DNA of 64,000 bases from Kangiella sp. (GTDB taxonomy: Bacteria > Pseudomonadota > Gammaproteobacteria > Enterobacterales > Kangiellaceae). The stretch is from contig JANQSG010000015.1 in the NCBI GenBank assembly GCA_028284185.1, forward strand, positions 62,001 through 126,000. Direction: 5' to 3'. Numbering within the stretch: position 1 is the stretch's first letter; each line of letters begins with the position of its first letter. Position numbers and translations under genes: made by a program. Below the pieces are notes generated by a model. It was not told the DNA's origin. It saw nothing but the letters and a program-made list of their open reading frames with translations, and ran no database searches. Positions 16,707-50,094 of this stretch are shown here, piece after piece.

Positions 16707-16800
16707 TTATTTCCCCATTTTTCTTCGTTAAAAAGAAAAGCCAAAATACTCACTTATTAGTATAAGCTCCGTGTTTTTCTTTTCTTTTTGCCTCGAATAA
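16707..16800 (+). ncRNA. Structured 3'-UTR element, copy A (family with 34913-35027 and 48278-48377)
   Basis: TTTCTTCGTT; AAAAAGAAAAG(16730-16740)/CTTTTCTTTTT(16779-16789); CTTAT(16753-16757)/ATAAG(16762-16766); TGCCTCGAA. Begins about 8 nt after the era stop. Confidence 0.6.
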
Positions 16801-16841
16801 TGAAAAAATATCTCATAAGGTAAAAATATAAAGATAAACTA

Positions 16842-16876
16842 GGTCATTGCGAGGAGAGCTTGCTCGACGCGTCAAC
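16842..16876. repeat. REP-like fragment
   Basis: GTCATTGCGAGGAGAGCTTGCTCGACGCG resembles the other extragenic repeats in the window. Confidence 0.55.
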
Positions 16877-19532: not shown

Positions 19533-19650
19533 GGGACATCATTTCTTATCAAATACATCTTTGTACTCTAATTTTGGGGCTTGATTTGCCATTCAAAATT
19601 GCTCCAGTAATTTTGTGGGTTTGTTTTCTTTGGACAAGCAAACGGCCATA
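19533..19650 (+). repeat. Partial copy of the multi-hairpin intergenic element at 35131-35395
   Basis: GGGACATCATTTCTTATCAAATACATCTTTGTA...TTGCCATTCAAAATTGCTCCAGTAATTTTGTGGG...GTTTTCTTTGGACAAGCAAA aligns with 35269-35380. Confidence 0.7.
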
Positions 19651-34912: not shown

Positions 34913-35027
34913 ACGGTTATTTTGCCCAATTTCTTTGTTAAAAGTTAAATTTCAGGCTTCTCATTAACTAGAGTTAACTACGAATCTGAAATTCATCTTT
35001 TGCCTCAAACTTGAACAAAATCCCACG
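34913..35027 (+). ncRNA. Structured 3'-UTR element, copy B
   Basis: ATTTTG(34919-34924)/CAAAAT(35016-35021); AAAAG(34940-34944)/CTTTT(34997-35001); AATTTCAG(34948-34955)/CTGAAATT(34986-34993); TTAACT/AGTTAA(34964-34977). Confidence 0.65.
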
Positions 35028-35130: not shown

Positions 35131-35395
35131 TAGCGTAAATTGGGCAGGTGACCATCGGAAATCCCTTTAGGGAGATAGCCCAATTTAGCAAATTCGAAAC
35201 AGGATGTTTCGTTTTGCGGCGCATTAAGTAACTTTGATGAATGAGGGAAGTGCGAAGCACCTGGCGATGGGATGTCCTTTCTTTTATGAAATACATCCTT
35301 GTATTTCACCCTTCGGGCTGGCTTCGCCATTCAAAATTGCTCCTGGCAATTTTGTGATTCGTTTTCTTTAGACAAGTAAAGAAAATGAACAGGTA
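35131..35395. repeat. Multi-hairpin intergenic element
   Basis: Consecutive inverted repeats: 133-145/178-189, 195-201/205-211, GTGC-gaa-GCAC, GAAATAC/GTATTTC, CAAAATTGC/GCAATTTTG, TTTTCTTTA/TAAAGAAAA (offsets relative to 35000). Confidence 0.7.
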
Positions 35396-46664: not shown

Positions 46665-46809
46665 GGTTTATAGTATTTATTAATCTATTGAAAATAGTTA
46701 TTTACCTGCTTATTAATAAAAAGGTATAATAACGCGCTTCATCAAGCCAGAGCAGAGGATGAATAACAGTGTTCAGCCCGTTTTTGGCACATAATACGTG
46801 GTATATGAT

Positions 46810-48270
46810 ATGCGCATTATAGAGGAAGCTCTTACCTTTGACGATGTTTTATTAGTACCTGGTCATTCGACCGTACTACCTGCGGATGCCGACTTACGCA
46901 CCCAAATTACGCGCGACTTTTCTTTAAATATCCCATTAGTTTCTGCCGCAATGGATACGGTTACCGAAGCCCGTTTAGCGATTGCTTTGGCGCAGGAAGG
47001 CGGAATAGGTTTTATTCACAAGAATATGAGCATTGAGCAGCAGGCCAATAATGTTCGTCGTGTTAAGAAATTTGAAAGCGGTATCGTAAAGGACCCTATT
47101 ACTATTCCACCAAATACTACGATTGGTGAAGTGAAAGCCATGACTGAGCGTCATGGTATTTCCGGTATGCCCGTAGTTGATGGGGATCAGCTGGTAGGTA
47201 TTGTGACCAACAGAGATATTCGTTTTGAAACCAATTTAGATCAACCGGTTTCGAATGTGATGACCTCAAAAGAGAACCTGGTGACGGTAAAAGAAAATGC
47301 TTCTAATGCAGAGGTGTTGGAAAAGCTGCATAAACATCGTATTGAAAAAGTTTTAGTGGTTGATGAGGCTTTTGATTTAAAAGGCTTAATTACGGTGAAA
47401 GATATTCGTAATGCTGAAAACAAGCCAAATGCCTGTAAGGATCGCGAAGGTCACTTGCGTGTTGGTGCAGCGGTAGGTACAGGTGCAGATACCGAAGATC
47501 GGGTTGAGGCTTTGGTCGAAGCCGGGGTTGATATTATTTTAGTGGATACTTCCCACGGTCACTCGCAAGGCGTATTGGACAAAGTAAAATGGGTGAAGCA
47601 AAAGTATTCACACAAGCAGGTTATTGGTGGCAATATTGCAACTGCTGCGGGTGCGCGTGCGCTGGTGGATGCAGGTGCTGATGCGGTAAAAGTAGGGATC
47701 GGTCCAGGTTCTATTTGTACTACCCGGATCGTAACCGGCGTTGGGGTTCCGCAAATCTCAGCAATTTCAAATGTAGCGCGAGAGCTTCAAGGTTCTGGTG
47801 TGCCCTTTATTGCTGATGGTGGTGTGCGCTTCTCCGGTGATATTTGTAAAGCCCTGGCTGCCGGGGCTTATTGTGTGATGGTTGGTTCCATGTTGGCAGG
47901 AACTGAAGAAGCACCTGGTGAAGTAGAACTGTATCAGGGCCGCTCCTATAAATCCTATCGTGGTATGGGTTCATTAGGTGCTATGAACCAAAAGAACAGT
48001 TCAGCAGATCGCTATTTTCAAAGCTCCAATGCGGCGGATAAACTGGTGCCAGAAGGGATTGAAGGTCGAGTGCCTTACAAAGGTGCCATGAACCAGATTA
48101 TTCATCAGATGATGGGTGGTTTGCGTTCCAGCATGGGCTTAACCGGTTGTGCCAGTATTGATGAAATGCGTAATAAGGCGGAGTTTGTGAGGGTGACGAG
48201 TGCGGGCATGAACGAAAGCCATGTGCATGATGTGACCATAACAAAAGAAGCTCCCAATTATAGGAGATAA
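46810..48270 (+). CDS. guaB: Inosine-5'-monophosphate dehydrogenase
   Basis: [37 protein letters not shown] domains. Confidence 0.98.
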
Positions 48271-48277
48271 ACTACTT

Positions 48278-48377
48278 AAATTGTCCGATTTCTTTGTTAA
48301 AGTTTAATTCGGTTGTGCTCATTTACTAAAGTAAACTCCGCAACCTCATTAAACTTTGCCTCGAACTCAAACAATTT
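48278..48377 (+). ncRNA. Structured 3'-UTR element, copy C
   Basis: AAATTGT(48278-48284)/ACAATTT(48371-48377); AAAGTTTAAT(48299-48308)/ATTAAACTTT(48348-48357); GGTTG(48311-48315)/CAACC(48341-48345); TTTACT/AGTAAA(48322-48335). Confidence 0.7.
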
Positions 48378-48454
48378 TATTGTTTCTCTCAAGTGCAAAC
48401 AAGTGAGTTCTTTTAGAGAACTTTAAAAGTTAAAGAAAAACCATGGAATAGAAA

Positions 48455-48481
48455 GAACCGCAGAGAGCCTGCGGTTTTTTG
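48455..48481 (+). terminator. Rho-independent terminator upstream of guaA
   Basis: AACCGCAgagagccTGCGGTTTTTT. Confidence 0.8.
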
Positions 48482-48516
48482 ATTTAAGAATTTTTTATGC
48501 CTAACCGAAGAAGGTA

Positions 48517-50094
48517 ATGCTGATGCAAGCGAATATTCATGATCATCGAGTTCTGATTTTAGATTTTGGTTCTCAATATACCCAGTTGATTGCGCGTCGT
48601 GTCCGTGAGATTGGGGTTTATTGTGAGTTGGTGCCTTTCGACATTAGCGATGATTTTATTCGTGAATTTAATCCAAAGGGAATTATTCTTTCCGGTGGCC
48701 CTGAATCGGTAACTTTGGATGATACGCCAAGAGCTCCCGATTTAGTGTTTCAGATGGGCGTACCTGTTTTGGGTATCTGCTATGGCATGCAAACCATGGC
48801 GCATCAGTTAGGTGGTAAAGTTGGCACTTCTGATAAAAAAGAATTTGGTTATGCCGAAGTTACGGCAACCGATAATAGGTTATTAAAGGGTATTGAAGAT
48901 CATATTGTGAATGGCAAGGCTATCCTTGATGTTTGGATGAGTCATGGCGATAAGGTAGTGGAAGTACCGCCAACTTTTGAAGTGATTGCGTCAAGTGATA
49001 ATGCGCCAATTGCGGCTATAGTACATAAAGAAAAACCTTTCTATGGCATTCAATTTCATGCAGAGGTTACTCACACTAAACAGGGTGGTCGTATTTTAGA
49101 ACGTTTTGTTGCTGATATTTGTGGCTGCGAAAAATTATGGACTTCGGCCAATATTATTGAAGATGCGATTGTACAAATTAAGCAGCAAGTTGGTGATGAG
49201 GAAGTGGTTTTAGGCCTGTCAGGTGGTGTGGATTCCTCAGTTACAGCCATGCTTTTACACAGAGCTATTGGCGATCAATTAACCTGTGTATTTGTGGATA
49301 ATGGCTTGCTTCGTTTAAACGAAGGTGATCAGGTAATGGATATGTTTGCTGGCAAATTTGGCTTAAACATTATTCGCGTTGATGCTGAAGATCGCTTTTT
49401 ATCAGAGCTACAAGGGATTGATGAGCCAGAAGCCAAACGAAAAATTATTGGCAAAGTATTTGTTGATATTTTTGATGAAGAATCTCAAAAGTTAGTTAAT
49501 GCTAAGTGGCTGGCTCAAGGTACTATTTATCCTGATGTGATTGAATCTGCCGGTGCCAAGACCGGTAAGGCACATGTAATTAAATCCCACCATAATGTTG
49601 GTGGTTTGCCTGAAGATATGGAATTAAAGCTGGTTGAACCGTTACGTGAGTTATTTAAAGATGAGGTACGCAAGATTGGTCTGGAGTTAGGTTTACCTTA
49701 CGATATGCTCTATCGGCATCCATTCCCAGGACCAGGTTTAGGGGTGCGTATTCTGGGCGAGGTGAAAAAAGAATATGCCGATTTATTGCGTAAAGCTGAC
49801 GCAATATTTATTGAAGAACTTTATAAGTGGGATTTGTATCATAAAACCAGCCAATCCTTTACGGTATTTTTACCCGTACGCTCGGTTGGTGTGATGGGCG
49901 ATGGTCGTAAATATGACTATGTGGTAGCTTTAAGAGCAGTAGAAACTATTGATTTTATGACTGCTCGTTGGGCACATTTACCATACGAATTCTTGGAGCA
50001 TGTTTCGGGTAGGATTATTAATGAGGTAGATGGGATTTCGAGAGTGACTTACGACATATCCTCAAAGCCACCAGCTACTATTGAGTGGGAGTAA
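48517..50094 (+). CDS. guaA: GMP synthase (glutamine-hydrolysing)
   Basis: [34 protein letters not shown]-terminal [12 protein letters not shown]. Confidence 0.98.

Follow-up and report, generated by a model that had tools for sequence, protein, structure and literature searches.

An imperfect hairpin in the guaB-guaA spacer

The guaB and guaA genes of Kangiella sp. lie on the same strand within the 64,000-nucleotide stretch of DNA that was analyzed here (the window), and the spacer between them contains a long imperfect hairpin followed by a separate terminator-like hairpin with a T run (Table 1). The guaB copy of the element folded at -34.4 kcal/mol (z -5.3), which none of 200 shuffled sequences equaled, and its helices were present exactly as a preliminary description, made from the letters alone, had laid them out. 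That description had given the element as 48278-48377; the core was confirmed there, but the full hairpin is longer than 100 nt, and its base extends to the guaB stop TAA (48268-48270), two bases of which are paired in the fold.

Table 1. Features of the guaB-guaA spacer and the other two copies of the element, in window coordinates
Feature	Position	Strand	Evidence
guaB, upstream gene	46798-48270	+	Orthologues in 20/20 Kangiella genomes searched
Whole guaB-guaA hairpin	48264-48390	+	RNA fold z -5.3; covariance model (CM) 103.7 bits
Conserved core of the guaB copy, P1-P3	48277-48377	+	CM E 1.2e-25, 103.7 bits
5' conserved motif TTTCTTTGTT	48289-48298	+	Exact match; conserved in 49 own-genome copies
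P2 5' arm AAAGTTTAAT	48299-48308	+	Pairs with 48348-48357; fold, arm-swap permutation
Apical part CTCA-TTTACT-AA-AGTAAA-CTCCG	48318-48340	+	Exact match
P2 3' arm ATTAAACTTT	48348-48357	+	Fold, arm-swap permutation, covariation
3' conserved motif TGCCTCGAA	48357-48365	+	Exact match; conserved in own-genome copies
Separate terminator-like hairpin and T run, downstream of element	48459-48485	+	Read from sequence
guaA, downstream gene	48517-50094	+	Name from sequence, without family search
Copy after era, core	16708-16809	+	CM 82.4 bits, E 8.8e-20; fold z -4.4
Copy after ndk, core	34918-35021	+	CM 75.6 bits, E 6.9e-18; fold z -1.9

Two further copies, after era and ndk, had been proposed in the window. 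All three sites were matched by a covariance model, to whose 12-copy input these copies themselves belonged; each copy lies immediately past a stop codon, and the motifs TTTCTTyGTT, CTCA..CT[AC]CG, and TGCCTCrAA occur exactly at every one of them. The fold of the ndk copy was modestly stable, 9 of 200 shuffles being as good. Immediately 3' of the era copy (16845-16875) is a sequence, GTCATTGCGAGGAGAGCTTGCTCGACG, that is similar to a repeat common in several bacteria. The window also contains a separate dispersed repeat (19546-19642 and 35284-35380, the latter in the ndk-rlmN spacer; 76% identity across 97 nt) that reads TTATsAAATACATC..GCCATTCAAAATTGCTCC..GTTTTCTTT.

The position of the hairpin directly past stop codons would also be expected of a simple intrinsic terminator. 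However, the element is AT-rich, no T run follows the hairpin, copies often lie between the cistrons of conserved operons, and those after guaB, ndk, and groEL are succeeded by a separate terminator-like hairpin, all of which make this explanation highly improbable.

Fold of the family

The element is a single long imperfect hairpin of about 100-150 nt with helices P0-P3. From the outside in, the modeled part consists of P1, a short block of conserved pairs (TTC/GAA or TAC/GTA), a block of mismatched pyrimidines (TTT against CTC), GTTA facing TGCC, a long P2, CTCA facing CTCCG, and the apical stem; in most copies, the extra outer helix P0 takes the hairpin to the stop codon. Conserved nucleotides were found at fixed internal mismatches (C-Y-GTTA facing TGCCTCG, and TCA facing CTCC or CTGC below the apical stem). 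The helix arms tolerated nearly any sequence provided that pairing persisted, and the outer helices were variable among the Kangiella copies. Integron attC sites carry the boxes R'' and R', with TAAC at the 5' end and GTTA at the 3' end; in the element, this layout is reversed (GTTA on the 5' side, GCCTCG on the 3' side), and a relationship to attC was rejected.

A long near-perfect helix past a stop codon could instead give rise to small RNAs from the 3' UTR or serve as a site of RNase III/E processing, working in trans and not through protection of the upstream mRNA, and Coxiella MITEs have been reported as sources of small RNAs (PMC5896051). Because the arms differ in every copy, however, there is no shared seed, and what is conserved is the internal mismatches and the overall fold. 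We therefore consider such a role unlikely.

Size of the family and database searches

The covariance model was built from 12 copies that resembled the guaB copy in BLAST searches. It gave 50 matches in the Kangiella sp. genome, 48 of them with E <= 1e-5, which contradicts the earlier supposition of a three-member family. The Infernal E values are rough; bit scores ranged from 38 to 104 over 102 positions. A chance origin of the matches is unlikely, given these scores and the lack of any match in 242 of 369 sampled Gammaproteobacteria genomes. Searches of 18 related genomes returned 12 to 48 copies apiece, to which the first pass may have failed to add some weak copies. The scan of the genome and its relatives suggested in the preliminary description thus uncovered many more copies.

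Among 49 own-genome copies, the median pairwise identity was 0.485, and a single pair reached 0.89. Tandem pairs of elements were present after gcvH (G000:C25:62036-62243) and rlmD (G000:C11:86500-86730). The first rlmD copy was 89% identical to the copy at a peroxiredoxin gene, which suggests recent copying.

No family in Rfam 15 matched the elements at its gathering score, and a lenient scan was likewise empty at the elements. Among the papers listed in a literature search by sequence string, none was relevant, and the REP papers examined do not mention Kangiella. The elements resemble a curated structured RNA family in having conserved internal loops and covarying helices, yet they are without a counterpart in Rfam 15, and we read them as, at best judgment, an undescribed family of MITE-like hairpins.

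Covariation of the helices

In the alignment of 49 own-genome copies, 40 of 42 pairs were altered on both sides, with 558 double-change cells compared to 197 in shuffled alignments, and standard pairs filled 79.5% of pair cells compared to 52.6%; since the alignments were fitted with the covariance model, these pair counts are biased toward the model structure. The covariation score was 0.606, whereas it was 0.165 after shuffling and did not exceed 0.169 with the partner slid by 1 to 3 columns. In an arm-swap test of P2 in the 49 copies, the own partner gave 428 compared to a maximum of 341 in 20,000 permutations; this test was anchored on the conserved motifs, although the copies were defined by the covariance model, and the anchors failed for a single copy and were wrongly positioned for several others.

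The element was also found directly 3' of guaB in 12 of 20 Kangiella genomes. At this orthologous site, 24 of 42 pairs were altered on both sides in a compensatory manner (score of 0.486 versus 0.174). Together with the arm-swap test and the 49-copy alignment, these changes bear out the proposal that arms change while pairing is kept, and hence that selection acts on the structure. Covariation beyond chance, as is expected of a cis-acting RNA element, was strong.

A recognized copy was not present at the other 8 of the 20 guaB sites, absences that may include copies too weak for the model. One of these sites (G010) contained another repeat and one (L122) a partial remnant, and the others were element free. 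In the guaB-guaA spacer of G010 (L115), a different, perfect hairpin of the GGGGTCAGAGT type (GGGGTCAGAGTCAATTTAT..ATAAATTGACTCTGACCCC) stands instead, and a string similar to it, GGGTCAGAGTTAATT, adjoins the sole Y1 transposase gene in L018. At ndk, a foldable hairpin lay directly past the TAA in 13 of 20 genomes, the arms belonging to several widely divergent sets; three Kangiella genomes (L286, L290, and L291) lacked the ndk element and had another shared sequence, TCTCAGCGAGCTACTTTCTCTTGCGTGGCCAAGAGAAAGTAGCC, at that site. At era, a match was obtained at 4 of the 19 orthologue loci searched. As the guaB copy was missing in 8 of 20 genomes and the era copy was present at only 4 of 19 loci, no single site appears to be indispensable.

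Placement relative to genes in Kangiella

Plausible sense gene ends were found between -10 and +33 nt from the core for 37 own-genome copies, or 40 if doubtful short open reading frames (ORFs) are included; genes were called by a simple ORF rule rather than a gene finder, in upstream flanks limited to about 1.5 kb. The second copies of the tandem pairs after rlmD and gcvH were also in the sense orientation, and about 10 copies were without an adjacent sense stop, at least 2 copies being antisense to a gene end. For the 34 copies with a usable downstream gap, 32 began no more than 11 nt past the stop, compared to 4.3 expected under uniform placement within the same spacers (0 of 200,000 draws). 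Likewise, of the 31 top-scoring copies in other Kangiella genomes, 24 had a sense gene only, 2 had genes on both sides, and none was antisense only. The tie to gene ends and orientation by which the element was to be told from a DNA repeat was therefore evident.

The upstream genes were mostly housekeeping genes. Those named by NCBIfam included groEL, dnaK, grpE, rpsB, infC, efp, pheS, lysS, trpS, sdhB, iscA, fdx, fabH, prs, lipA, yajC, ybaB, ftsK, purL, leuD, and gcvH; glyceraldehyde-3-phosphate/erythrose-4-phosphate dehydrogenase and several truncated proteins fell below some equivalog cutoffs. Many copies were internal to operons (pheS-pheT, rpsB-tsf, dnaK-dnaJ, guaB-guaA, leuD-leuB, yajC-secD, iscA-hscB, fabH-fabD, sdhB-2-oxoglutarate dehydrogenase E1, and gcvH-gcvP).

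That the copies were in the sense orientation and directly past stop codons far beyond chance supports the reading of the element as an RNA 3' element in Kangiella. Moreover, the sense stop register, the intercistronic position, and the compensatory change at a fixed site suggest a function in RNA.

MITE-like copies outside Kangiella

At E <= 1e-3, the covariance model matched at least once in 127 of the 369 sampled Gammaproteobacteria genomes (105 of 272 genera), as judged from the best 10 first-pass candidates per genome. A strict DNA pattern also matched Salinibius, Modicisalibacter, Hydrogenovibrio, and Pontibacterium, as well as six contigs of metagenome-assembled genomes (MAGs) filed as Bacteroidota, where the model confirmed the matches at E values of 1e-10 to 1e-14. 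The presence of a GWxTD-domain gene on one of these MAG contigs, and of a FimS-like kinase on another, is consistent with Bacteroidota. The strict pattern was without a match in viral contigs, and spread by phage was thus unsupported.

Outside Kangiella, the core was bounded by inverted-repeat ends that differed by genus (AGGAGGCTGTCCGAGAACTCA in G263, GAGACCTTTGCACGA in G286, CTACTGTGTCACAAAGCG in G199, AGGACTTACGC in G160, and AGACCTCTTGCATAA in G205). In G160, AGGACTTACGC ends bounded about 93 palindromic elements, some of which were short versions that lacked the middle and had ends 45 to 70 nt apart instead of 107 to 124. An autonomous insertion sequence with the G205 ends was not found, the terminal 15-mer flanking hairpins only or standing alone. 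A link to a PD-(D/E)XK (PF12784) transposase, to which an earlier study pointed (PMC4853749), was rejected, as the gene was present only in G263 among seven genomes.

The sense orientation and gene register seen in Kangiella did not extend to G160 and G205. In G160, 9 copies were sense, 4 were antisense, and 17 were neither; the corresponding numbers in G205 were 4, 6, and 8, plus 1 copy that was both. Neither genome showed a clear preference for orientation or stop codons. Since the core occurs elsewhere as repeats bounded by terminal inverted repeats, it appears to move in the manner of a MITE; the register relative to stop codons was observed in Kangiella.

These observations raise the possibility that the element is a purely selfish palindromic MITE, mobilized by a transposase in trans, whose adjacency to stop codons reflects an insertion preference (YTAR or TA in TAA and TAG) and purging elsewhere. 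The near-identical copies within single genomes (G263 and G286), the CTAG/YTAR-like flanking duplications seen by eye in G263, the approximately 186 matches of the G160 terminal sequence compared to 7 for its reversed control, and the lack of a clear preference for gene orientation in G160 and G205 all fit this explanation. However, a symmetric target cannot yield copies that are nearly all sense, as those in Kangiella are, and target duplication was not evident by eye in the Kangiella copies. TGA stops were used as well (3 of 40), and the stops beside elements (28 TAA, 9 TAG, and 3 TGA) mirrored those of the window genes (40, 13, and 10), by which a TA target was rejected as the cause of stop adjacency. 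In addition, compensatory pairing at the orthologous guaB site is unexpected for a dead insertion. We regard a purely selfish element as rather doubtful. The preliminary description had opposed an RNA 3' element to a mobile repeat; the first part stands for Kangiella, but the opposition fails in view of the dispersed MITE-like copies elsewhere, and the element is probably both, mobile by origin and an RNA element in Kangiella.

Comparison with REP elements and bacterial MITEs

Enterobacterial REPs and BIMEs are likewise palindromic, numerous in a genome, intergenic or intercistronic, and in part near stop codons, and the roles reported for REPs include mRNA protection and ribosome stalling (PMC5927463 and PMC12306157). 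However, REPs are 20 to 40 nt long rather than 100 to 150 nt, and the present elements have arms that are unrelated between copies and covary, are sense oriented in Kangiella, and are without a tag of the GTAG/CGTC type, the nearest sequence being CGGAG at the foot of the apical stem on the complementary strand. As in BIMEs, the element might act as a DNA hairpin or cruciform, with a DNA protein (a RAYT/HUH transposase, gyrase, IHF, or a nucleoid protein) binding its conserved mismatches. Indeed, the complementary-strand apex (CGGAG-TTTAC..GTAAA-TGAG) resembles a tagged REP foot, and the genome has one Y1 transposase (PF01797) gene. That gene, the only one of its kind, and its flanks are nevertheless without an element copy or covariance-model match, and a RAYT/Y1 link was rejected; a PDDEXK_2 transposase was not found in Kangiella either. 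Moreover, sense orientation and spacing from the stop would matter only via transcription or translation. An action at the DNA level is thus improbable.

The elements share with bacterial MITEs (Correia/NEMIS, ERIC, and Coxiella QMITE1/2) the form of palindromic noncoding repeats with inverted ends, and outside Kangiella some also have near-identical copies (G263 and G286) and, as seen by eye in G263, CTAG/YTAR-like duplications. They differ in that one core is common to genera with different terminal repeats, and even to different phyla, in that compensatory change keeps the hairpin, and in the stop-codon register of the Kangiella copies.

Proposed role and implications

On balance, we favor, with some reserve, the interpretation that these are MITE-like hairpins that Kangiella has retained or co-opted as sense-oriented RNA elements of 3' UTRs and intercistronic spacers, where they would protect the upstream mRNA. 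In the putative transcript, the hairpin would close at the end of the cistron once the ribosome has terminated, and, after cleavage between cistrons, it would block 3'-to-5' exonucleases, such that the upstream message (groEL, dnaK, rpsB, guaB, pheS, and others) would be stabilized relative to the downstream one. A precedent is the malE-malF intercistronic structure, which shields malE mRNA against 3' exonucleases (PMC5927463); both are hairpins between cistrons of one operon and may act alike, but the sequences are unrelated, and the function of the present element is proposed by analogy. The hairpin may also slow or mark ribosomes at the stop, as has been described for E. coli REPs no more than 15 nt from stop codons, which PMC12306157 cites for ribosome stalling. 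The conserved mismatches could be bound by a candidate protein.

A broader and more tentative possibility is that a horizontally spread family of hairpins that share a fixed set of mismatches, present in one-third of the sampled Gammaproteobacteria genomes and in Bacteroidota, was domesticated throughout the Kangiella genome as a stop-anchored RNA module. Such a module would control mRNA stability and translation termination at about 40 housekeeping cistrons, and a protein, either dedicated to it or broadly conserved, would recognize the mismatches. More generally, the element would represent an undescribed repeat and RNA family that covaries strongly and is widespread, as well as a natural example of a mobile palindrome that has settled into a single register, at the stop and in the sense orientation, in the core genes of one genus. 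The shared mismatches would serve as bait for the protein that reads them. It has long been debated whether hairpins of the REP type at stop codons are selfish or have a function, and this question would become directly testable, Kangiella having guaB-guaA spacers both with and without the element.
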